NCBI GenBank assembly: GCA_030688025.1
Contig: JAUYJL010000034.1
Span: 1-48,602, forward strand
Source of the DNA: Candidatus Peregrinibacteria bacterium
GTDB taxonomy: Bacteria > Patescibacteriota > Gracilibacteria > UBA1369 > LOWO2-01-FULL-3
DNA: 48,602 bases
Direction: 5' to 3'
A program made the position numbers and the translations under genes. Below, in pieces: positions 20,926 through 38,119 of this stretch (position 1 is the first letter of the stretch; the number at the start of each line of letters is the position of its first letter). The notes under the pieces are model-generated. The model was not told where the DNA came from, did not search any database, and worked only from the letters and a program-made list of their open reading frames with translations.

Positions 20926-21765
20926 ATGAAAAATGCGGAGCTAACAATTTTTGAGGATTACAATATTCGTCGTCAATATGATGAAAAGAATGAGGTTTGG
21001 TATTTTTCGGTGATTGATATTGTTCAAGTTTTGATTGAGCAAAAGGATTATCAGGTAGCTAGAAATTATTGGAAAGTCTTGAAAAATCGCTTGGTTAATG
21101 AAGGAAGTCAGTCGGTTACAAAATGTAACCAACTGAAATTAGAGGCTGCTGATGGCAAAAAATATCTTACTGATGTGGCTGATACTGAAACGTTACTTCG
21201 TCTTATTCAGTCGGTTCCAAGTCCAAAGGCTGAGCCTGTGAAACTCTGGCTCGCGAAAGTTGGATACGAAAGAATTCAAGAATTGGCTGATCCTGAAAGA
21301 TCATTGAATAGGGCGCGAGAAAATTGGAAAAAACACGGTAGAAGTGGAAAATGGATTCAGCAAAGGATGATGGGACAGGAGACTCGCAATAAACTTACGG
21401 ATTACTGGAGTGAACATGAGATAAAACATGCCAAGGAATTTGCTATTTTGACTAATATAATTCATCAGGAATGGGCGGAGGTAAGCGTAAAATCTCATAA
21501 GGAGCTAAAGGGTTTGAAGACTCAAAATTTACGTGATCATATGACGGAATCGGAGTTGATTTTTACTGCTCTTGCTGAGCTTTCAACAAGAGAGATTGCT
21601 GAAAGTGTTGAGGCTACGGGAATGGAGGAAAATAAAACTGCAGGTAAAGAAGGAGGAGGCATTGCTAAAAGGGCACGAATAGATCTTGAGGAAAAGACTG
21701 GGAAAAAGGTTGTTAGTGAAAAGAATTATCTTGAAGTGGAAAAAGATGTTAGAAAGTTGAGATAA
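20926..21765 (+). CDS. BRO-N/DinD-like protein
   Basis: The 279-aa protein has a BRO-N type N-terminus: TIFEDYNIRRQYDEKNEVWY followed by FSVIDIVQVLI and YWKVLKNRLVNEG, then TDVADTETLLRLIQSVPSPK. The later KWIQQRMMGQETRNKLTDYW segment is like E. coli DinD and other DNA-damage-inducible proteins. DinD is reported to inhibit RecA filaments; phage BRO proteins bind DNA. The operator-like promoter (20873-20901) suggests regulated, possibly damage- or phage-linked, expression. The repeat copy C begins directly after its TAA. Confidence 0.75.
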   Translation: MKNAELTIFEDYNIRRQYDEKNEVWYFSVIDIVQVLIEQKDYQVARNYWKVLKNRLVNEGSQSVTKCNQLKLEAADGKKYLTDVADTETLLRLIQSVPSPKAEPVKLWLAKVGYERIQELADPERSLNRARENWKKHGRSGKWIQQRMMGQETRNKLTDYWSEHEIKHAKEFAILTNIIHQEWAEVSVKSHKELKGLKTQNLRDHMTESELIFTALAELSTREIAESVEATGMEENKTAGKEGGGIAKRARIDLEEKTGKKVVSEKNYLEVEKDVRKLR

Positions 21766-23931: not shown

Positions 23932-24732
23932 ATGAAAAAAATAAATGAAATGTTAGCTCTTTCGTCTAAAACTGCTGTTGTTACTGGTGGATCTAGAGGA
24001 ATTGGTTTTGGGATTGCTTCAAGGCTCGCTGAGGCTGGAGCAAATGTCGTGATTGCATCGATTAATGAAGAAGAAGTGTCGAAAGCTGTGAAGACTCTTT
24101 CTGATAATGGTTGGAGTGCAAAAGGATTGGTCGCAGATGTTTCAAAGGAAGAAGATGTTTTGAATATGCGAAAATTTGCTATCGATAATTTTGGTGGTGT
24201 TGATATTTTGGTTAATAATGCGGGAATTTTTCCTTCTATGCCGATTGCCAATATGACGATTGAGGATTTTAAAAAAGTTATTTCTGTAAATTTGGAAGGT
24301 GTTTTTCTTTGTACAAAATATTTCAGTGAAGAAATGATCAAGAAGGGGAATGGAGGAAAAATTATTAATGTGACTTCTATTGATGCGATTCATCCATCGT
24401 CTATCGGATTAGCTCATTATGATGCGTCAAAACATGGTGTTTGGGGGTTCACAAAAAATAGTGCACTAGAATTAGCTCCTCATAAAATTTGGGTTAATGC
24501 CGTCGCTCCCGGTGGAATCGCGACTCCCGGAGTTGCAGAAATGCAGGGAGGTGGTGCTGATAAGACTATTGATATGTCGAAATTCTTGGAAGCATTTTTG
24601 AATAAAATTCCAATGCACAGAATGGGAGAACCCGATGATATTGCTAAGGTTGCACTTTTTCTAGCCTCAGATATGTCTTCTTATATGACTGGTTCACAAA
24701 TCGTTGTTGATGGAGGATTTTTGTTGAGTTGA
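23932..24732 (+). CDS. Short-chain dehydrogenase/reductase (SDR)
   Basis: The 266-aa classical SDR has the cofactor motif TGGSRGIGFGIASRLAEAG, VNNAGIF, and the catalytic YDASKHGVWGF (Y-x3-K) with the serine in VTSIDAIH. The C-terminal QIVVDGGFLLS is typical of FabG-like SDRs. It oxidises or reduces an alcohol/ketone with NAD(P)H; the substrate is not evident. It is 27 nt from the DUF5652-like gene. The terminator at 24755 separates it from the convergent tubulin-like gene. Confidence 0.9.
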   Translation: MKKINEMLALSSKTAVVTGGSRGIGFGIASRLAEAGANVVIASINEEEVSKAVKTLSDNGWSAKGLVADVSKEEDVLNMRKFAIDNFGGVDILVNNAGIFPSMPIANMTIEDFKKVISVNLEGVFLCTKYFSEEMIKKGNGGKIINVTSIDAIHPSSIGLAHYDASKHGVWGFTKNSALELAPHKIWVNAVAPGGIATPGVAEMQGGGADKTIDMSKFLEAFLNKIPMHRMGEPDDIAKVALFLASDMSSYMTGSQIVVDGGFLLS

Positions 24733-24754
24733 GGATAAAGTGTATAGCCAAAAG

Positions 24755-24786
24755 AAAACGGCTCTGCTTTTGGCAGAACCGTTTTT
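24755..24786. terminator. Bidirectional terminator between SDR and the tubulin-like gene
   Basis: AAAACGGCTCTGC (24755-24767) pairs with GCAGAACCGTTTT (24773-24785) with one mismatch, then TTTT. It lies 23 nt after the SDR stop and 19 nt before the end of the minus-strand gene, so it can serve both. Confidence 0.8.
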
Positions 24787-24804
24787 AATGTATTTGTGTT
24801 TACT

Positions 24805-27474
24805 TTATGCTTGTTGTTGTCCTCCTGCTTTTACGTGTTTTCTGTATTTTTCACATCCAGGACAACAAGTGGCTTGACCTCTTTTGATTGAAAATTCGTC
24901 TCTGTAGTATTTTACTCCACATTCTGTTGTAGGACATGTTGTTATTTCACCTTTTTCTCCATTATTTTCGAATTCTCTTCTTGCGATAGCTTCGAATATT
25001 GGATTTAACATATCTGCCTGCATGTCTTTCCAAGGGAATGAATCTTCTCTTGCTGCTTCCTCGCCGGATCCACCATTTGCTCCCATTCTTTCAGCCATTT
25101 CTCTTGTTGGAACTACTTCCAACATCGCTTGGAAACATGCTCTCGCATATGCATCGTTAACAATTAAATTCCATCTGTTTACCTGTTTAATAGCTGAGAA
25201 TGATCCGTGTGCATCAACTGCGACTACATTATCTCTCCATTTAGGTAGATAAGCGCCGGTAGCTAAGGCGGCTTGCCTGCTTGCTTCCGGAGTGTCATGT
25301 CTACGGAGAGGAATAGTTACTGCCATGGTTGTTTCTTCCATTAATTCTCGAGAGGCTCTAGCATCTACAGGAACTGTTAGAGGTTCTGAATTTCTGTCCA
25401 TTACCGATAAAATTCTTTGGTTTGCGGCGGCTCTTAAAATATCTACATCGCCTGTAGGCGTCATTAATCCTTCGGCTGGGACGCTTACGTCAAGGGCTGT
25501 AGTTAGGTCTTTTCCGACTATTGCTCCTTCCATCCTTGTGAACTCTTCTTCTGCCGTTTGTTTCTCTCTGAGAATGTTGCTTTCGATTCCTGTTAGATGA
25601 GTTCTCAATGTTCCAAGTATTTGATCATCAAATACATTTTCTTGTAGTATTAACTGTTTTTTCTTCATTTCCGCGTATTGTGTAAGCAATGTTGCAAGTT
25701 TTACTAATTCTCCTTGCATCGCATCCATGCTTCTTTTTCTTTTACCTTTTCCTAAAAGTCCACCGAGTTTAAGCTCTGAAATTTCCATTTTTGAAATCTC
25801 AGTTGTAAGTGCTTCGATAGCCTTGCTTCTTGCTTCAAGAGCTTCTGGAGAACAATCTTCTCTTTCTGTTTGTGCTATAGTTTTTAACTCATCAATTCTT
25901 CTAAGCAATGTTTGGACGTATTCCAATGCTGTTGCAAGTCCGGCTCGTGATTTTACTTCTTCGACTTTGGAACTTATGTCATTAACAATTCCTCTTCTGG
26001 ATTGCATCAATTCTTTGCGAACATTTTCTTTTAGAGTTACGGCGACTGAATCTCTTAGGAATTCAGAAACTGTACCTTTTATTGTTCCCGGTATTTCGCC
26101 ATAGTCTTCAGTGTCTCCGAAATCTTCAATTCCTTTCGTTGGAGCACTTACTCCTGCTAAAATATCTTGGATTTTTCTTCGAGGAAGTGTTGCTTCTGTT
26201 TCAGCGGCGACGATGTCCATTTTTGGAGCGAAAAGACCTGAGTCTTCACCAAAACGTTTTGCTTCATTTTGAGCATTTACAACTCTTGCACTTGGGTTTG
26301 TTGTTAATGTACTTGCTCCTGCTGAGATAAAAATGCTTAATGGAGCGTTCGGAGTGTTTGGGCCTTTTGCTTGATTTCTGCTAGGGCGTGCGTTGTTTCT
26401 TAGGTTCTGTAAATCATTACCTGTTTTGATTCTTGCGGCTAAAATTGCGGCGGCTGTTGCCATAGGTTCATAATGTCCACCGACATCTCTATGAGGGTTA
26501 GATCCTCCAAGGATCATTGTGTATTCAGGGCAACACTCTGCTTCGTGTCTGTGTTCTGGAGTTATTTGCATTCCTCTCCTTGCGAAAGCGGCGTTGGCCA
26601 AGGCCAATCCTGCGGCTGTATTTCTTCTTCTTTTTTGTGTAAGTCTTGAACCTTTAAGATTTCCATCCAAAGATTTTTCTCCAGATTGTGAAGTCATAGC
26701 GATTCTTTCGCCTATGATTTGTACTGAATTATTTGTTTCTTGAGGGAACATTTCTCTGGCTAGTCTCATCGCGTCTGCTTCTATAAGCAATGCTGACGGA
26801 CCTGTACCTCCATGAAGTCCTCCTACTGAAGTAACGATAATTTCTCCAACGAATGGTCTGTGCTGGCCCTGTGGTCCCGGTTCTCTGAATTCCCTTAAAA
26901 TGCTTCTTACTTCTATCAATGGATCTGTACCTTCAATATTGCTTTCTCTTACTCCGGCGTATTGATACATTCCAAGTCTTGGGTCTGATTCTGCACCTGC
27001 GTTGTTTGGATTTTCAATCAATACTTGTCCTGTGGCATGGTCCTTTACTCCTGAACTTATTAAAGTGCTGTTCAAATTACTTCTAAACATGTTTACAACC
27101 CTTACTCCCATGTCTGTCAGTTCAGATAATTGAGCGGTTTTGTTTCTTGAGTCAGCCTTGTCTACATCTCCTTTGTTTGTGTCTATGAATATTGCATGCG
27201 GAATAACAGCAAGACCTTTTTGGAATTCATTTCCAAATCTATGGCCGGAAGCTTTTAATTCTACTGCGAGCCTTGTTAAGGCTTCAAGTCCAGTACCTCC
27301 GACAAATATCAATATCTGTCGTGGAACGGGTCTTTCATCGATTTCAATGCCTGCATCTATGTTGTCTGCATGGCTTAAGTCAACGTGTCCGTTTGTTGGT
27401 GGATTTCTTCTTGGATCCTGTGCTGGATCTTGTGTTGGATCTGCTCCTGGATCTCGTCTTGGTGATGTAGTCAT
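24805..27474 (-). CDS. Divergent tubulin/FtsZ-like protein with C-terminal cysteine cluster
   Basis: This 889-aa protein has QILIFVGGTGLEALTRLAVE (glycine motif at 59-62) and, at 215-229, the tubulin/FtsZ-like T4 region TSVGGLHGGTGPSAL. That is the double-G pattern of nucleotide-binding loops in bacterial tubulin-like proteins. A 50-residue N-terminal leader is Asp/Pro/Arg-rich. Around 490-680 is a long charged helical region, probably coiled coil. The C-terminus has C847, C852, C870, C871 and C874, a possible zinc ribbon. I read the protein as an assembly-forming GTPase with an attachment module. It is much longer than FtsZ, so polymerisation is inference. It is followed by a divergent promoter pair and the vWA gene upstream. 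Confidence 0.65.
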   Translation of the reverse strand: MTTSPRRDPGADPTQDPAQDPRRNPPTNGHVDLSHADNIDAGIEIDERPVPRQILIFVGGTGLEALTRLAVELKASGHRFGNEFQKGLAVIPHAIFIDTNKGDVDKADSRNKTAQLSELTDMGVRVVNMFRSNLNSTLISSGVKDHATGQVLIENPNNAGAESDPRLGMYQYAGVRESNIEGTDPLIEVRSILREFREPGPQGQHRPFVGEIIVTSVGGLHGGTGPSALLIEADAMRLAREMFPQETNNSVQIIGERIAMTSQSGEKSLDGNLKGSRLTQKRRRNTAAGLALANAAFARRGMQITPEHRHEAECCPEYTMILGGSNPHRDVGGHYEPMATAAAILAARIKTGNDLQNLRNNARPSRNQAKGPNTPNAPLSIFISAGASTLTTNPSARVVNAQNEAKRFGEDSGLFAPKMDIVAAETEATLPRRKIQDILAGVSAPTKGIEDFGDTEDYGEIPGTIKGTVSEFLRDSVAVTLKENVRKELMQSRRGIVNDISSKVEEVKSRAGLATALEYVQTLLRRIDELKTIAQTEREDCSPEALEARSKAIEALTTEISKMEISELKLGGLLGKGKRKRSMDAMQGELVKLATLLTQYAEMKKKQLILQENVFDDQILGTLRTHLTGIESNILREKQTAEEEFTRMEGAIVGKDLTTALDVSVPAEGLMTPTGDVDILRAAANQRILSVMDRNSEPLTVPVDARASRELMEETTMAVTIPLRRHDTPEASRQAALATGAYLPKWRDNVVAVDAHGSFSAIKQVNRWNLIVNDAYARACFQAMLEVVPTREMAERMGANGGSGEEAAREDSFPWKDMQADMLNPIFEAIARREFENNGEKGEITTCPTTECGVKYYRDEFSIKRGQATCCPGCEKYRKHVKAGGQQQA

Positions 27475-27495
27475 AGTGGTTATTTTTAAGGTGTT

Positions 27496-27523
27496 ATTAT
27501 ATCTTATATTTTAATTTTGTCAA
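27496..27523 (-). promoter_or_regulatory. Promoter of the tubulin-like gene
   Basis: On the minus strand TTGACA (27523-27518), a 16-nt spacer and TATAAT (27501-27496) precede the gene by about 22 nt. Both hexamers match the consensus exactly, so this should be a strong constitutive promoter. Confidence 0.7.
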
Positions 27524-27545
27524 GTGTTGTTTTCAAGGGGTAGAT

Positions 27546-28688
27546 TTAAGGTGTAAATTCGATATCTGTGCCAATCATTGTGGGCTTTGTAAGGACTTGT
27601 CCGTTGTGTTTTACTCCACCTCTTGTTGGTGTGAATTCATACGATTGTCCATTGACTCTTGCCTTGAATGGGCCTTGTCTTTTTGGCAGTTTGATTATTT
27701 TTGGGTATCCATTTCCGTCTTTATATCTAATTTGACCTTTTAGTTTTGGTTTATTTTCTTTGTATATAAGTGTTCCCATACCTGTCGCTGTAATTAACAT
27801 CAAGATTAGAAGAGTCATTCTTACTTTGAATTTGATGGACTCTATTCTTTCTTCTATTCCTTTGATTTTTCCATCATATTCTGCTAATTCTTGAGAGTGT
27901 TTCCTGTGAAGTTCTGCGACTTTTTTTGCATAATCTTCCATGGCTTTTTGGTGAGCTGTATTTGCTTTTCCGTCTGCTTCCGCTTGAGCTTTTTGACCAA
28001 GTAGGCCGGTGAATTCTTTTAAAATGCCTGCTAATTCGTCACCTGTTGAGGCAGTGGTTGTTGTGATTTCTTTATTGTCAGGATCGGTTAGGGAATCTTT
28101 TACTTTTTCTGCGTTTGGTAAGTAAGATTTTTTAGGTACGATAATCTTTAATGGACTGTGTACTTCCGGATTTGGGTTTTCTCCTTCCTCTATACCGTCT
28201 GTCCATAATGCAATAATTCCGTTTGTGGATCCTTTTGTTCTACTAAGAATGTCTTCTATGGAAACTGCGAGGTGAGTGTTTACGCCTCTTTGTTGAACTA
28301 CATCGATTTGATCAACTGCTTGTATTAAAGCCGCTTGGTCTTGTGGTAATTCGTGGCTTGTACAAGATGCATGTTCGTCTACCTGACATATGTTAACAGT
28401 ATCTCCCGCTTGCAAAATTCCTCCTTTTTGCAAAAAATCTTTTGTTGCTTGTCTTACTCCCGGTAATTCTTTTGCAATTGCACTTCTTGTATGATCGACT
28501 GCTATCGTTAAGACGATAGGTGCTCTTTTTGCGACCGTTTTTTTCGGTTTTGGTGGTTCTGCTATTGGTTGCACTGCTGCAGGTTCATCTATAAAGCTTT
28601 TTGCAACTGGCTCTGCCCCATAGTATGCCCCGAGTCCTAATGCTGTTGTGACAGCTAGGCCCGCTCCGATTTTATTTAAACTTTCCAT
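27546..28688 (-). CDS. Membrane-anchored vWA-domain protein
   Basis: The 380-aa protein has a likely N-terminal membrane segment (LAVTTALGLGAYYG), then a vWA domain: VDHTRSA at residues 64-70 gives the MIDAS D-x-T-x-S, and LWTDGIEE (161-168) supplies the later aspartate. A coiled coil (about 232-285) follows, then a second membrane segment (291-309) and a 70-residue beta-rich C-terminal domain beginning KGQIRYKDGNGY. The vWA probably faces outside or a partner protein. It lies upstream of the tubulin-like gene on the same strand. Each has its own promoter, so functional partnership is inferred from proximity. Confidence 0.65.
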   Translation of the reverse strand: MESLNKIGAGLAVTTALGLGAYYGAEPVAKSFIDEPAAVQPIAEPPKPKKTVAKRAPIVLTIAVDHTRSAIAKELPGVRQATKDFLQKGGILQAGDTVNICQVDEHASCTSHELPQDQAALIQAVDQIDVVQQRGVNTHLAVSIEDILSRTKGSTNGIIALWTDGIEEGENPNPEVHSPLKIIVPKKSYLPNAEKVKDSLTDPDNKEITTTTASTGDELAGILKEFTGLLGQKAQAEADGKANTAHQKAMEDYAKKVAELHRKHSQELAEYDGKIKGIEERIESIKFKVRMTLLILMLITATGMGTLIYKENKPKLKGQIRYKDGNGYPKIIKLPKRQGPFKARVNGQSYEFTPTRGGVKHNGQVLTKPTMIGTDIEFTP

Positions 28689-28712
28689 AGCTAATATTTA
28701 AAGAAGTATACA

Positions 28713-28741
28713 TTTATATAGTATATATCTATTCTTGTCAA
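28713..28741 (-). promoter_or_regulatory. Promoter of the vWA gene
   Basis: On the minus strand TTGACA (28741-28736), 17 nt and TATAAA (28718-28713) precede the ATG by about 25 nt. The -35 is identical to that of the tubulin-like gene, and both lie within an AT-rich run. Confidence 0.65.
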
Positions 28742-28832
28742 GTCTTTGTTTGATTTTTCTTAAAATGCTTTAGCACTGGATTGAAAGACTTTTTCGATGT
28801 AGAATGGGTTTAAATTAAAAATTAATAGATAG

Positions 28833-31605: not shown

Positions 31606-32103
31606 ATGTCTGATATTTATAAATTTCTTGAAGAGAATGGAATTGAATATGAAAGGTTTGACCATCCTGCTGTTTTTACTTGTGAGGAAGCGGATTTGTT
31701 AAATATTGAAATGCCTGGAGTGAGCACGAAAAATCTTTTTTTGCGAGATAAAAATGGTAAACGTCATTTTCTTGTAACTGTTGATAAAGATAAACAGGTT
31801 GATTTGGGTAAACTTAAAGAAATTCTTGAGGTTTCTAAATTGAGTTTTGCTTCAGAGGAGCGGTTACAAAAACATCTTGGATTAACGCCTGGATCTGTCA
31901 CTTTACTTGGGGTTATGAATGATTCTGATTGTGCAGTTGAAGTTATTGTTGATGAAGAGATTTGGGGCAAGGCTTTACAATGTCATCCTTTGATAAATAC
32001 CGCTTCGCTTGTTCTTGAGGTTGAAGGGCTCAAGAGTTTTTTGGAAAAAACTAAACATATCCCAAGGATTATTAAAATTCCTCAAAAGACTGATTCGGAT
32101 TAA
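31606..32103 (+). CDS. YbaK/ProX-type aminoacyl-tRNA deacylase
   Basis: This 165-aa protein fits the YbaK/EbsC editing-domain family: an N-terminal helix (IYKFLEENGIEYERFDHPAV), KNLFLRDKNGKRHFLVTVDK, FASEERLQKHLGLTPGSVTL, and the C-terminal LQCHPLINTASLVLEV. The lysine of KNLF and the GxxxPG-like loop are features of proline-tRNA trans-editing proteins that hydrolyse mischarged Ala- or Cys-tRNA. The exact specificity (ProXp-ala is my best guess) is not certain. Its stop overlaps the convergent ligase-fusion gene by 4 nt. Confidence 0.85.
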   Translation: MSDIYKFLEENGIEYERFDHPAVFTCEEADLLNIEMPGVSTKNLFLRDKNGKRHFLVTVDKDKQVDLGKLKEILEVSKLSFASEERLQKHLGLTPGSVTLLGVMNDSDCAVEVIVDEEIWGKALQCHPLINTASLVLEVEGLKSFLEKTKHIPRIIKIPQKTDSD

Positions 32104-34472
32104 TCTTCTTTTTCTTGCAGATAAAATGGCAAGAGCCATGGTGGTTTTAATTCGGGGATTTTTTTGACGAGATATAAATCATTTAAATTTATTTTTCCGT
32201 GATATAAATCTCGTAAATCTCCGCCTTTTTCTATGAAAGCTAAAATCATTTTATGTCCCTTGAAGTAAACAAGTTCGCGAGTGAATCCTCCGGGTTTTGA
32301 GGTGTCCGTAAGTCCACGTTTTGTTTTTAGTGCGACACGCTGAGCTCTGGCTCTGTCAAAACCAAGGTTTATTAATGCGTTGACGGTTTCAACAAAACTT
32401 CCTTTTAGGGCTTGAGCGACGCCTATTGTTGATGATGCCGGCCAATAAGTTTTTGGAATTGGATGTGACTGAACATTGTTTTGGTTGTATATGGCGAGAC
32501 CTTCTTCGGTAAATAAATAATCAGCCAGTCCTCTTTGGAAAATTTTATAAGGTTGAGTTTTTCCGTTTACAGAGGTCAAAACGTGAGTTTCAATTTCATG
32601 AGCTATTGTGCCCTTGAGTCTTTGGGATGAAAAAGTTGCATCTTCGCGAATTGATATGGTTTTTTCTTTTCCTGCAATTACGTCAGAAATTAATTCTTTT
32701 TGAATAACAACATTCCATTGTTTTAGGCCATATTTAGTGAGGATTTCTTCAAATTTTGCTTTTGCTTGAAGTGCATTTATCATAGGGCCTTCTTCCGGAA
32801 AAGTAGTTGGCATTGTTCTTACAAATGCTTCGGCTTCTTCTACCAATAGGGGATCAGGGGCGCCATAAAGTTCTATGGATTTTTCAACAAATTGATCTGT
32901 TCCTCTGGCTTGTAATAAATTTATTTTGCGCATGATTTCGTCGGCTTTCTTTTTCCAAAGTATTCCGATAATCGAATCAGGAAATGCCATTTTTTCAATT
33001 GTAGTAAGGAATTCTTCCGCATTGAAATTTAACGGTTTGTAAATAAATTGAGGATTGTAATTTGTGTCGGCAAGAATTTGTTTTTCTTCTTCTTCTAAAT
33101 TTATCGGTTTCAAATAATGTAATAAATGTATTTGTTTGTCGATATCCATTAGACTTGATTCAAGCGCAAGGCTTTTGGTATTTTTTGATGGTTTTTCAGC
33201 GAAGATGGAAGGCCATGAAACTTTTGGAATTTTGACTGCGTTGCGGAGTGTGGTTTTTTTGTTTGGATCAATTAATATGTCTTTTAAATCACGCATGCCA
33301 AGTTGGACGGGAGTGTCTTCTCCCAAGTCTCCGATATCGACGACTGTGACAATTCTTTGGGTTTTGATGTTAAGTTTACATTTTGTATCTGGTTCTATTC
33401 CTAATAATCGCGCCAAATGTTGATCTACCATTGTTTTTTCTTTTGAGAAATCTACACGTGCATTTACCTTTTGTTTGCCTTTTTCTCCAATGATTTCAAT
33501 AGTGTCGTTTAGTCCAATAATTGGTTTTTCTTTTTGTTCGGTAGGTCTTTCGGCACGTTGTCCGAAAAGATCGAGGGCGATTCGTACGCCTTTTTCTGGG
33601 GTTTGGACTTTGATTCCTTCAATACGTTCGAGTCGTCGATGCAGAGGTGCCATGTTTGCGATTTGTACTGAAAGGCCGGCGCGTGCGTTGATTTCCAAGA
33701 GTACTGGACCTGATGTTTTGTCCAGACTGATGTCGATTGCCGCAAACCCAAGATTACTTATTTGTTGAACGCGAGAGGCGATTAACAGGATTTTTTCCCA
33801 ATGAGGAATTTTTAAACCTGTGATATCTCCATATCCGGGGACTTCGGAAATGCGTTTGCCGTATTGAGTTGTGTATGTGATTTCTCCTTTGGAAATGTCG
33901 ATTCCGGCGGCGATTCCGCCTAAATGTACATTGGCTTTTCCGTCGGATTCTTGTGTTGGTAGTCGCAACATTGCCATTACCGGGATGAGGTTGTGAACGA
34001 TTACACGGATGTCTGGAAGGCCTTTGTAGGCGATTGAAGCAAAGGGTTCCGGTGCTGAAAGTATTTGTTCGAAGAGTGCAATGTCTGAAAGTTCATTCAT
34101 GGAATAACGACCGTCCAGTATGTCTTCAATATGATCTTTTAAAGTTTCTTGGGAAATGATTTCATCGTTTGATTTTATGAATTTTTTTCCTTTTCTATCT
34201 TTGATAATTATTATTCCTTCTCCGCCGTATCCGGAATCCGGTTTCACTACAAATGATTGAGGAAGGGAGTTCCAATTAAAATTTTTTAATTCTTTTTTAC
34301 CGGAAATAGATGCGTATAATTTTGCTGTCGGAATGCCGCGGGCGGCGAGAAAGTGTTTTGTTTTTAGCTTACTGTCCGCCATTAATACGGCCTTTTTTTG
34401 ATTGTAGGCTTTTATGTAAAGTAGATTTCTAGCGTTGATGCCGAGAAGGCCTGGATTGTGAAAAAACCACAT
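32100..34472 (-). CDS. Fusion: glutamate-ligase-like ATP-grasp, degenerate RimB-like domain, QEGLA/DUF1704 metallopeptidase
   Basis: The 790-aa protein opens like the RimK-related alpha-L-glutamate-ligase-like family (GLLGINARNLLYIKAYN). The ATP-grasp domain has KPDSGYGGEG at 77-86 and VLLEINARAG at 257-266. A retropepsin-like RimB/Zn_protease segment follows (about 315-410), but the expected DTG is DFS (341-343), so it is probably inactive. The C-terminus has HEIETH at 625-630 and TEEGLA at 655-660, the zinc and QEGLA signature of DUF1704, a family that includes the eukaryotic tubulin carboxypeptidases of the MATCAP type. The protein may add and remove amino acids from a peptide or protein. 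It lies 15 nt after the 7TM gene, as one operon. Confidence 0.8.
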   Translation of the reverse strand: MWFFHNPGLLGINARNLLYIKAYNQKKAVLMADSKLKTKHFLAARGIPTAKLYASISGKKELKNFNWNSLPQSFVVKPDSGYGGEGIIIIKDRKGKKFIKSNDEIISQETLKDHIEDILDGRYSMNELSDIALFEQILSAPEPFASIAYKGLPDIRVIVHNLIPVMAMLRLPTQESDGKANVHLGGIAAGIDISKGEITYTTQYGKRISEVPGYGDITGLKIPHWEKILLIASRVQQISNLGFAAIDISLDKTSGPVLLEINARAGLSVQIANMAPLHRRLERIEGIKVQTPEKGVRIALDLFGQRAERPTEQKEKPIIGLNDTIEIIGEKGKQKVNARVDFSKEKTMVDQHLARLLGIEPDTKCKLNIKTQRIVTVVDIGDLGEDTPVQLGMRDLKDILIDPNKKTTLRNAVKIPKVSWPSIFAEKPSKNTKSLALESSLMDIDKQIHLLHYLKPINLEEEEKQILADTNYNPQFIYKPLNFNAEEFLTTIEKMAFPDSIIGILWKKKADEIMRKINLLQARGTDQFVEKSIELYGAPDPLLVEEAEAFVRTMPTTFPEEGPMINALQAKAKFEEILTKYGLKQWNVVIQKELISDVIAGKEKTISIREDATFSSQRLKGTIAHEIETHVLTSVNGKTQPYKIFQRGLADYLFTEEGLAIYNQNNVQSHPIPKTYWPASSTIGVAQALKGSFVETVNALINLGFDRARAQRVALKTKRGLTDTSKPGGFTRELVYFKGHKMILAFIEKGGDLRDLYHGKINLNDLYLVKKIPELKPPWLLPFYLQEKED

Positions 34473-34487
34473 GATACAAGAGTTAGT

Positions 34488-36002
34488 TTATTCTTCTTCT
34501 TCAGCATGTTTCATAACTTCTCGGAAACGGAATATTTCGGTCAGTCTTAGTCCTGTCCAACGGCCGAGGAGGACATTGATGAGAAGTAAAAGGAGAATTA
34601 GTTCTGGATAAGCCAACATTAATGTTTGCATGTATTCCCATTCTACCAATTCATAACATAATATTGAGACGGCCATCGTTTCTGTCATGAGAAATATTGT
34701 TGATTTGTATCCACGACCACTCAATGCGTTTGCGAATTTTTCGGCCATTGTTGTCATAACTAAGATCGGGAAAACTGCAATTGACGCGAGTTGGCTCACA
34801 TTTAGCCATGCTCCAAAAGCCAATAAACCTAAAATTACTAAAGTGGAAGAACATAAAATAATCGCCAAACGTGGATGATGTAATAGATGGAATCGATCAA
34901 GAAATTTTCTGAATAGTGCTCCTGTGATGATGATTACTGCTAGGATAGCCAAACCGGCATTTATGCCTAAGGCAAGGAAAGATAAGGTGATGATTGATGT
35001 TGAATACAGTCCAAATGTGCCGAATCCGATGACTTGTTTTATGAATGTAATTAGTGTGACAATGAGTGGCAACATTAGAAGTAGGACGATTGTATTTGAG
35101 GGGATTCCTTTTGTGATCATGTAATTTACTAAAGAAGAAATCGCGTTCCATAAGCCAATATGACTTGATTCTGCATTGATGATGCTGTACTGAGCTCCGC
35201 CTTTTGATAAGGATATTATGAAGTCTTTGGTCGATTCTGAGGCGATTAGATTTCTTAATTGATGCTGTCTTGTTAGAATGATTTGCTGAGGTTCAATAAT
35301 GTTGAAATTGCTCTGCATTATTCTTCCAAGTGTCGTGAGATTTTTGTCGCTAATTACGATAAGGCTTTTCCCTTTTAAAATTTCTTTGATTTCAGGGCGT
35401 TCTTGGACAAGTCTTGTGAGGGAATTGATTCCGCTACCACGGCTGGTCCATAGGATTATGTTTTCTGCACTACCAAGAATGTTTTTTTCTTCGACTGTTT
35501 TTTTTGCCAAGGCTTCTTCGGAAATGAAAGCGGTAGTGCTGTCATAACTGTCTATAACTTTGATGAAAATGCCATTGTCTTTTGCTTCTTCAACCAGGCT
35601 TTGAATGGTTTCCTTTTGATCTAAAATGTCTGTTAGGAGAGCCATTAATTTGCCGTAAACGAAAACGTTATGAATCACTATTGTGTCCTTATCTCTTTGT
35701 TTCATTGTTAATGTGACTTGGTAAGAGCCTGTGTTTTCAAAGCTGTGGACGACTTCTTCACCTTTTTCTTGGTGGGATTTGTCTCCAAAGTCCCATGAAT
35801 ATGTGACCGGTTCGTCCGGATAGAGAAGTTGTGGAGAGGATATGTCAAAAATGATATTTTTGCCTGCTTCCACTATGTCGTTTGAGGCTATAGTTACGGT
35901 AAATTGTGGATCGGATAAACTAACTCCTTGCGCAAGTTGTGCCGTCATTACTATGGATAAAATAAATCCAATCAGTAGTGTTGTAATTATTTGCTTAATC
36001 AT
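34488..36002 (-). CDS. PKD-domain, 7TM-transglutaminase-like membrane protein
   Basis: From ATG 36002 the protein starts with a signal peptide (MIKQIITTLLIGFILSIVMT). A PKD domain follows (VTYSWDFGDKSHQEKGEE), then an extracytoplasmic domain (about residues 125-300) and seven hydrophobic segments ending in GRWTGLRLTEIFRFREVMKH. This C-terminus matches the 7TM domain of UUP1/inactive-transglutaminase membrane proteins, which are encoded beside alpha-L-glutamate-ligase-like genes in many bacteria. Here the transglutaminase part is replaced by PKD and an unassigned domain. ATG 36038 is a possible earlier start. It precedes the ligase fusion by 15 nt, so the two probably work together at the membrane. 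Confidence 0.75.
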   Translation of the reverse strand: MIKQIITTLLIGFILSIVMTAQLAQGVSLSDPQFTVTIASNDIVEAGKNIIFDISSPQLLYPDEPVTYSWDFGDKSHQEKGEEVVHSFENTGSYQVTLTMKQRDKDTIVIHNVFVYGKLMALLTDILDQKETIQSLVEEAKDNGIFIKVIDSYDSTTAFISEEALAKKTVEEKNILGSAENIILWTSRGSGINSLTRLVQERPEIKEILKGKSLIVISDKNLTTLGRIMQSNFNIIEPQQIILTRQHQLRNLIASESTKDFIISLSKGGAQYSIINAESSHIGLWNAISSLVNYMITKGIPSNTIVLLLMLPLIVTLITFIKQVIGFGTFGLYSTSIITLSFLALGINAGLAILAVIIITGALFRKFLDRFHLLHHPRLAIILCSSTLVILGLLAFGAWLNVSQLASIAVFPILVMTTMAEKFANALSGRGYKSTIFLMTETMAVSILCYELVEWEYMQTLMLAYPELILLLLLINVLLGRWTGLRLTEIFRFREVMKHAEEEE

Positions 36003-36176
36003 GTTTGGAATTGTATCATTTTTTGTTTGTGGTATCAAGAATGATGTTGGTTTTGGTTTGAGTGGTTGGCTTGTTGAACAAGAATTTTGAGATAGGTCAA
36101 TTAAAAATTTGGAATATTTTTTTTAAAAAAGCTGTAATGGTTTGTATAAAGCCGGATTGTCTAATTCACCGGAAAT

Positions 36177-36482: not shown

Positions 36483-37973
36483 TTATTTCAATTCTTCTAA
36501 ATCCAGCAATTCATTTAAAGTGACTTGTTCTACAAATTCTGGCATATGGGAGACCAAAATGATCGCGCCTTCATAGTTGTCGATTGCTTTTGCGATGATT
36601 GGTAAGTGACGGAAATTGATGTGATTTGTCGGTTCATCCAAAATTAGTAAACCAGGTTCTTGCAAAACGAAACGAGCATAACAGAGCAAACCTTTTTGTC
36701 CTTCAGAAAGTGATCCGACTTTGTTTTTCATTAATTCTGAGGTTAATAAAAAGTGTGCGCCTGTTGCGTAAATTTTTTCATTTGAGGGGTCGGCTGCGAT
36801 TTCCATTAGTGAATCGTAAACTGTTTTTTCAAAATCCAAACCCGCAAAATCTTGCTGATAGTAGCCAACTTTCACTTCTTCGGTTATTTTAGTGCCTGCT
36901 GATTTTCCTTCCGCTAATTCTCTAAGGAGCGTGCTTTTTCCGATTCCGTTTGGTCCTACAATTCGAAGTTTACTTCGATTGAAAAGTTTCATTTCTACTT
37001 TTTTTGGAATTTTTTCGTTGTTTTTTATTACTCCGACTGAAGAAATTCTTACGACAACATCAGACCATTTTTGTGACGGAATAATAAAATTTCTGATGGT
37101 TTTATCGTCGCGTTTTACGTCGACCATATTCTCTTCGTCTTCAGCTACTTCATCTCGAAGTTTGCTCGCCAGTTTGCGCATTTTTCCTCCTTTGTGTGAG
37201 AAGAAATTTACTTTATCTTTTCTGTCTTGAATGTTTTTTTCCAGTTGAGCATTTTTTCTTTGTTCACGTTCAATTTGTCCTGCGATTTGCTCTATTACGT
37301 CAAAATAATCTCCAACATATTGTTCAACTTTTTTTGAATAAACGTCTAAATTTAAAACTCCGTCAGTGAAACAATTTAAAAAATTTGCATCATGCGAAAT
37401 CACAATAACTGTTTTTTCATATCCCATCAAAAATCCAGTAAGGTGATTTATGCCTTCTGTATCAAGATTATTTGTTGGCTCGTCGAGAAGTAAAATGTCC
37501 GGTTCTTGAATTAGTGCGTAAGCGAGTAGAAGTCTTGCAAGTTGTCCTCCTGAAAAATCTTTGATTTTTTTATCCAATGGAGTTGAAAATTGAACTACTT
37601 CAAATACGTCTTTGATTAATTTTTCGATGTTATATTTTTTTTCTGAGAATGCAGTTTTGAAATATTCTAAAACTGTGTGTTCAAAAAATCTTTTTGGCAT
37701 AACTTGAAGTCCGATGCCGACAGATGCTCCGTTTAGGATGTGCACTTTGCCTGATATTGGCTTTAGAGTCATGTCTGCGGTGATGTCTTCTTTTACACCT
37801 GCGGCGCCTAGAATCAATTTAAAAATTGTACTTTTCCCCGCACCGTTTTGTCCCATGATTGTAATTTTTGCATTTTCACGAACAGAAAAACTTGCCTCAT
37901 TTAAAATGGGTTTATTTTGGTCGTAATGAAAACATACATTATCAAATCTTAATACAACATTTCCTTGATTCAT
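36483..37973 (-). CDS. ABC-F family ATPase (translation-associated)
   Basis: The 496-aa protein has two ABC ATPase domains without membrane segments. The first has MGQNGAGKST, FSGGQLARLLLAYALIQEPD and LLLDEPTNNLDTEG. A charged coiled linker follows (about 230-300), then the second domain with GPNGIGKST, LSEGQKGLLCYARFVLQEPG and LILDEPTNHINF. This matches ABC-F proteins such as EttA or Uup, which act on ribosomes or in resistance. The second signature LSEGQ is slightly unusual. The start ATG 37973 (MNQGNVVLRFDNV) is family-typical; an ATG at 38033 is less likely. Confidence 0.92.
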   Translation of the reverse strand: MNQGNVVLRFDNVCFHYDQNKPILNEASFSVRENAKITIMGQNGAGKSTIFKLILGAAGVKEDITADMTLKPISGKVHILNGASVGIGLQVMPKRFFEHTVLEYFKTAFSEKKYNIEKLIKDVFEVVQFSTPLDKKIKDFSGGQLARLLLAYALIQEPDILLLDEPTNNLDTEGINHLTGFLMGYEKTVIVISHDANFLNCFTDGVLNLDVYSKKVEQYVGDYFDVIEQIAGQIEREQRKNAQLEKNIQDRKDKVNFFSHKGGKMRKLASKLRDEVAEDEENMVDVKRDDKTIRNFIIPSQKWSDVVVRISSVGVIKNNEKIPKKVEMKLFNRSKLRIVGPNGIGKSTLLRELAEGKSAGTKITEEVKVGYYQQDFAGLDFEKTVYDSLMEIAADPSNEKIYATGAHFLLTSELMKNKVGSLSEGQKGLLCYARFVLQEPGLLILDEPTNHINFRHLPIIAKAIDNYEGAIILVSHMPEFVEQVTLNELLDLEELK

Positions 37974-38119
37974 ATTCTTATGCAAATTTAAATATTTAGT
38001 GCTTACACTAGCGATTTTTTTGAGGAAATGCAAGGGGTTAATATGTCACATCCAGTCGTCCCGTGTTTGTGTCTCCAAGATAAAAATGGAAATTTAATGT
38101 CATTCCGACTTTTGTTGCG

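Follow-up and report, generated by a model that had tools for sequence, protein, structure and literature searches.

The window analyzed here is a stretch of 48,602 nucleotides (nt), contig JAUYJL010000034.1, which is one of the contigs of a Candidatus Peregrinibacteria genome of 1.18 Mb that is 98% complete. Two neighboring genes on its minus strand are the subject of this report. The upstream gene (27546..28688) encodes a 380-residue membrane protein with a vWA domain, and after a gap of 71 nt it is followed on the same strand by a gene (24805..27474) for an 889-residue tubulin/FtsZ-like protein, recognized from its open reading frame (ORF), its alignment with a relative and domain and fold comparisons. 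A reading made earlier from the sequence alone (the sequence-only reading) had proposed that these two ORFs, both present as described, encode a cytoskeletal or membrane-remodeling pair outside the FtsZ division system, and had suggested looking for the pair in other genomes. We found it in contig JACRIA010000010.1 (L002/L005) of a second Peregrinibacteria genome (G072), which belongs to another family of the same order. There, a 400-residue vWA protein and an 864-residue tubulin-like protein are encoded 66 nt apart, in the same order and on the same strand as in the window. The tubulin-like proteins are 23% identical and the vWA proteins 31%, and common to both pairs are T1 and T4 loops, the motifs AMTSxS and GGxxxxxRDxGGHY, and four C-terminal cysteines.

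The predicted tubulin-like GTPase domain of the 889-residue protein spans residues ~48-412 (26239..27333; all features of the pair given here lie on the minus strand). Its T1-type loop, GGTG (residues 59-62; 27289..27300), is kept as GGTG in the relative, and its T4-type loop, GGLHGGTGPS (residues 218-227; 26794..26823), corresponds to GTHGGTGAP there. In the T4 loop (GGTGP at 222) the [ST]G that usually follows GGTG is lacking; the T4 segment of the relative aligns with the T4 of the genome's own FtsZ over 28 columns, 50% identical (P = 0.003). Behind the domain lies a long helical region (residues ~478-655; 25510..26043), with heptad-like stretches at residues ~484-650 and long helices predicted at low confidence. 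At the C terminus, the cluster C847-x4-C852-x18-C871-x2-C874 (24853..24936) is of the zinc-ribbon/treble-clef type; the four cysteines align with Cys828, 833, 851, and 854 of the relative, and the cluster gives weak matches to zf_CopZ/FdhE_C in the window protein and to IBR in the relative. Both nucleotide-binding loops and the cysteine cluster named by the sequence-only reading are thus retained across the two genomes, and its long helical region is suggested by helix prediction and heptad score, at low confidence.

Searched at full length against Pfam and NCBIfam with hmmscan, the 889-residue protein gave no tubulin match. The isolated N-terminal domain matched Tubulin_2 (PF13809; curated Pfam cut-off, 27 bits) with E values of 0.0016-0.005 and scores of 16.5-18.2 bits, and the relative did so with E values of 0.0013-0.0017 and 18.1-18.5 bits, in both cases colinearly from profile position 1. 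The relative also matched Tubulin (PF00091) with E values of 3e-5 to 9e-5, covering the T4 region. For the window protein, the profile search against tubulin/FtsZ families that had been called for yielded a sub-threshold signal from the isolated domain but no full-length match. A PF13809 search of the window's own genome and 287 genomes of the phylum found nothing above the cut-off; one genome (G388) has a single 31-residue match, probably a T4 loop. Searching PDB sequences with the profiles returned chance matches only (methionyl-tRNA synthetase, a designed PPR protein, and annexin), and these were set aside.

An AlphaFold (AF2) model of the window protein, built from the two-sequence alignment, has a mean predicted local distance difference test (pLDDT) value of 39.7, rising to ~65-77 in the core near T1 and T4. 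When Foldseek's candidates were structurally realigned with VIA-align, the best 50 matches listed for this model were all tubulin, FtsZ, CetZ, or PhuZ, with Z scores of 10.1-12.3 over residues 48-412. Foldseek itself, given the low-confidence full-length model, ranks SDR-type Rossmann proteins first, which raises the alternative that the N-terminal domain is an ordinary nucleotide/NAD-binding (SDR-like) domain. We regard this as very improbable, since the relative's domain, folded by itself, gives a better model (predicted template modeling score, 0.65; core pLDDT, ~75-91) for which Foldseek places phage c-st TubZ first and beta-tubulin next (E = 3-4e-4). VIA-align on that model gives Z scores of 12-14 with CetZ first, and for both models all matches listed are tubulin/FtsZ; the independent Tubulin and Tubulin_2 profile signals and the alignment of the relative's T4 segment to FtsZ also argue against the Rossmann alternative. 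Structural identity to FtsZ, tubulin, CetZ, TubZ, and PhuZ is ~10-19%. Fold models, profile signals, and T4 alignment combined are good evidence that the 889-residue protein belongs to the FtsZ/tubulin superfamily, as the models predict. Of the two refuting conditions that the sequence-only reading had set, a structure prediction without the tubulin-like fold and a pair that is not conserved, neither came true, and its interpretation is supported. For the branch within the superfamily, the same data are weak evidence.

The partner protein carries a vWA domain at residues 61-176 (28161..28508), matched by Pfam VWA with an E value of 4e-4 at 21 of 23.8 bits, slightly below the curated cut-off; the relative's copy has no Pfam VWA match. 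The metal ion-dependent adhesion site (MIDAS) reads DHTRS (residues 65-69; 28482-28496) and DITRS in the relative, that is, DxTxS for the canonical DxSxS. Hydropathy delineates an N-terminal hydrophobic segment of signal-anchor type (residues 7-25; 28614..28670) and a second membrane segment (residues 291-309; 27762..27818; hydropathy, 1.85), so that the two-segment membrane protein with a vWA MIDAS described earlier is found again here. The DxTRS MIDAS, the N-terminal hydrophobic segment, a coiled stalk, and the second membrane segment are common to the window protein and the relative, which begins DRRNFLI...AFISC in a Tat/lipoprotein-like manner. Because two membrane segments anchor the protein, the vWA/MIDAS domain and its stalk probably lie outside, and the ~70-residue basic tail after the second segment is putatively cytoplasmic.

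The pair is rare. Among 353 genomes of the class it occurs in two, and neither gene was ever found without the other; no more relatives turned up in 380 genomes across the phylum or in another two groups, of 230 and of 55 genomes, samples that partly overlap, with a single hidden Markov model made from two sequences, which may miss diverged relatives. Nor were there any relatives among 72,556 plasmids, 50,697 phages, IMG/VR, and PHROGs, where the vWA proteins gave weak coiled-coil-type matches only.

The boundaries of the module are defined by a genome of the same genus (G002), where the two flanks, ~88-93% identical to those of the window, run on contiguously. Matches to the G002 contig (L016; tblastn/blastn) stop at 24732 and restart at 28776, so that 24733..28775, the 4,043 bp inserted or deleted, is replaced by 101 bp. 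In the window the module separates an SDR gene from a CNNM/CBS gene; in G072 the pair has a PHP-domain gene on one side and a glycosyltransferase gene on the other (names taken from sequence reading rather than profile search), flanks unrelated to those of the window. A 75-nt direct repeat (92%; L005 674-748 and 4790-4864) brackets the G072 pair, the end of the upstream PHP gene being partly copied directly behind it, as if by insertion with homologous flanks. Because of this copy, the empty site in G002, and the unrelated flanks, gain of the module is the likelier direction than loss in G002. The G+C content of the pair is unlike that of its neighbors in both genomes; third-position G+C in the window lies inside the neighbors' range, so composition is weak evidence of transfer there. 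Most likely, the module is laterally mobile and accessory. Directly downstream of the G072 pair, before the glycosyltransferase-like gene, is an ORF of 109 residues without a Pfam match (L005 4922-5251, plus strand), which has the low G+C of the pair and could belong to the insert.

That the module moves, and that Foldseek's top match for the relative's domain is the TubZ of phage c-st, would fit a TubZ-like tubulin that once segregated a plasmid or element and was stranded on the chromosome. We consider such a relic highly unlikely, however, as no replication, integrase, or centromere-binding gene adjoins the pair, the plasmid and phage collections returned no match, and what always accompanies the tubulin-like protein is a membrane protein of the vWA type and not a DNA-binding adaptor; moreover, tubulin and FtsZ match the domain roughly as well as TubZ does.

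Transcription signals are in keeping with a layout that looks like vWA gene, tubulin-like gene, terminator. A promoter-like TTGACA-16-TATAAT (27496..27523; a 12/12 consensus match) precedes the tubulin-like gene, a TTGACA-17-TATAAA found by direct reading (28713..28741) precedes the vWA gene, and a terminator-like hairpin of 13 pairs (24755..24785) follows the tubulin-like gene. These sigma-70-like sites had been described as strong and near-identical; the first term holds and the second holds roughly, in that the -35 box is common and one base of the -10 box differs.

The canonical ftsZ-ftsA genes of this genome are on another contig, which places the pair outside the division FtsZ, as the sequence-only reading had supposed. 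Elsewhere in the window, a protein with a BRO-N domain (E = 1.2e-6), a domain frequent in phages and mobile elements, is encoded at 20926-21765 (plus strand). Two neighboring ORFs of equal length, 516 residues (34488-36038 and 36483-38033, minus strand), are possibly tandem paralogues; a homologue of the second adjoins the CNNM gene in another genome (G001), so the region has been rearranged within the genus. Some 4 kb from the pair, the gene at 32100-34472 (minus strand) encodes an ATP-grasp ligase (TIGR02291-like) fused to a MATCAP/DUF1704 (QEGLA) peptidase domain. MATCAP peptidases resemble the microtubule-associated tyrosine carboxypeptidase, a type of tubulin-modifying enzyme. The gene was considered as a partner because such an enzyme would here adjoin a tubulin-like protein. 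We rejected it because MATCAP is widespread without the pair (53 of 79 related genomes have it, and G002 has the gene and no pair), and because G072 carries the pair but MATCAP was not found there.

On balance, we favor the interpretation that the two genes form a module that moves laterally and represents the FtsZ-like-1 (Tubulin_2-type)/vWA systems in minimal form, with membrane-tethered, GTP-dependent assembly coupled to a vWA sensor outside the cell. The 889-residue protein would bind GTP through its N-terminal domain, whose fold is predicted and whose binding is suggested by T1 and T4, and would assemble with the aid of the long helical region, the C-terminal zinc-type cluster serving for docking. 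Outside, the vWA domain may make metal-dependent contact with an envelope or foreign ligand, and a signal from this contact would cross the membrane to nucleate or release the tubulin-like assembly there. Its role would be accessory (envelope remodeling, attachment, or defense) and separate from the division machinery. A more specific form of this proposal, which we put forward only tentatively, is a self-sufficient two-protein transmembrane switch in which the extracellular vWA adhesion sensor directly controls assembly of a tubulin-family GTPase docked by its zinc tail, and which is passed between ultrasmall bacteria of the candidate phyla radiation (CPR) without the usual GTPases.

Several observations weigh against the module as we interpret it. 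Neither protein reaches the Tubulin_2 cut-off (16-18 of 27 bits), and the NxDxxD motif of the T7 catalytic loop was found in neither, and T7 was not located. No GTPase, protein kinase, or OmpA-like gene adjoins the pair in the window or in L005, and GAP1-N2 (PF20013) was not found in either genome by a search whose control detects it in C. glutamicum. A promoter-like site precedes each of the two genes, and co-transcription is thus not certain. The full-length window model is poor and built on two sequences, and the topology of the vWA protein is derived from hydropathy, charge, and the relative's Tat/lipoprotein-like start and not from a trained predictor; GTP binding, polymerization, membrane localization, and coupling are likewise proposed from sequence and predicted models.

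Some of the same evidence would suit a conflict (defense) system, in which an invader or competitor would be sensed or bound at the surface by the vWA protein, with the tubulin-like protein acting as an effector or scaffold through self-assembly. The patchy, mobile distribution with its empty site is compatible with this, and the combination of tubulin, coiled coil, and extracellular vWA is described in predicted conflict systems (PMC7159879). We judge it a possible but doubtful explanation, given that PADLOC produced no match, no defense genes lie nearby in the window or L005, GAP1-N2 is missing from the search results of both genomes, and no toxic effector domain was recognized. The envelope and attachment biology of CPR bacteria is poorly understood. 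The minimal FtsZ-like-1/vWA module that we prefer would add to these bacteria a tubulin-family system outside cell division; with two genes and none of the usual additional components, it would be simple to reconstitute and would make the membrane-remodeling prediction directly testable.

The prediction is not new with this pair. FtsZ-like-1 (FtsZl1; Pfam Tubulin_2, PF13809) was described by Makarova and Koonin in 2010 (PMC2875224) as having vWA genes in most of its operons and was predicted to act in membrane remodeling; we found no experimental paper on FtsZ-like-1/vWA systems in the literature searched. Like FtsZl1 as presented there, the window protein has a tubulin-like domain at its N terminus in which T1 and T4 are present; its heptad-like stretches and long helices, predicted at low confidence, may correspond to the coiled-coil middle and helical C terminus of FtsZl1. 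In both, a vWA gene belongs to the same operon (a probable one in the window), and in FtsZl1 its product is often membrane bound with an intact MIDAS, as is predicted here; canonical FtsZ is also present, and distribution is patchy. In FtsZl1, too, T6-H7 cannot be placed, and the GTPase, kinase, and OmpA-like partners are frequent and not obligatory. The window protein differs in scoring below the Tubulin_2 cut-off, in lacking a GTPase, kinase, or OmpA-family neighbor, in its Peregrinibacteria (Patescibacteria/CPR) host, and in its conserved C-terminal four-cysteine cluster, which the sections of PMC2875224 drawn on here do not mention for FtsZl1.

A second comparison is with the GAP1-N2 GTPase systems (PMC7159879; Kaur et al. 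2020), known from firmicutes and actinobacteria, within which tubulin and vWA genes, one with an extracellular vWA, form neighborhoods proposed to be conflict systems. Here, too, a predicted tubulin domain is fused to a putative coiled-coil/helical C terminus, and the protein encoded next to it is a membrane protein whose vWA domain probably lies outside the cell; in actinobacteria the membrane vWA protein also contains a beta-rich domain (PMC7159879). The difference is that the defining GAP1 component was found in neither pair-bearing genome. With FtsZ, tubulin, CetZ, and TubZ/PhuZ, the window protein shares the predicted GTPase-domain fold, and it differs from all of them in its large inserts, putative coiled coil, and cysteine-rich tail; when the FtsZ/tubulin family was surveyed in 2023, Tubulin_2 proteins were left out as too diverged (PMC9871819). 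By analogy, the pair may act like the FtsZl1 and GAP1-N2 tubulin-vWA systems without formal membership in either, because the Tubulin_2 score falls short and GAP1 was searched for and not found. The general kind, FtsZ-like-1 with vWA and GAP1-N2 tubulin-vWA, is already described; what is new is that the system here has two genes without GTPase/GAP1, kinase, or OmpA, carries a zinc-type tail, belongs to a CPR host, and scores below the Tubulin_2 cut-off.

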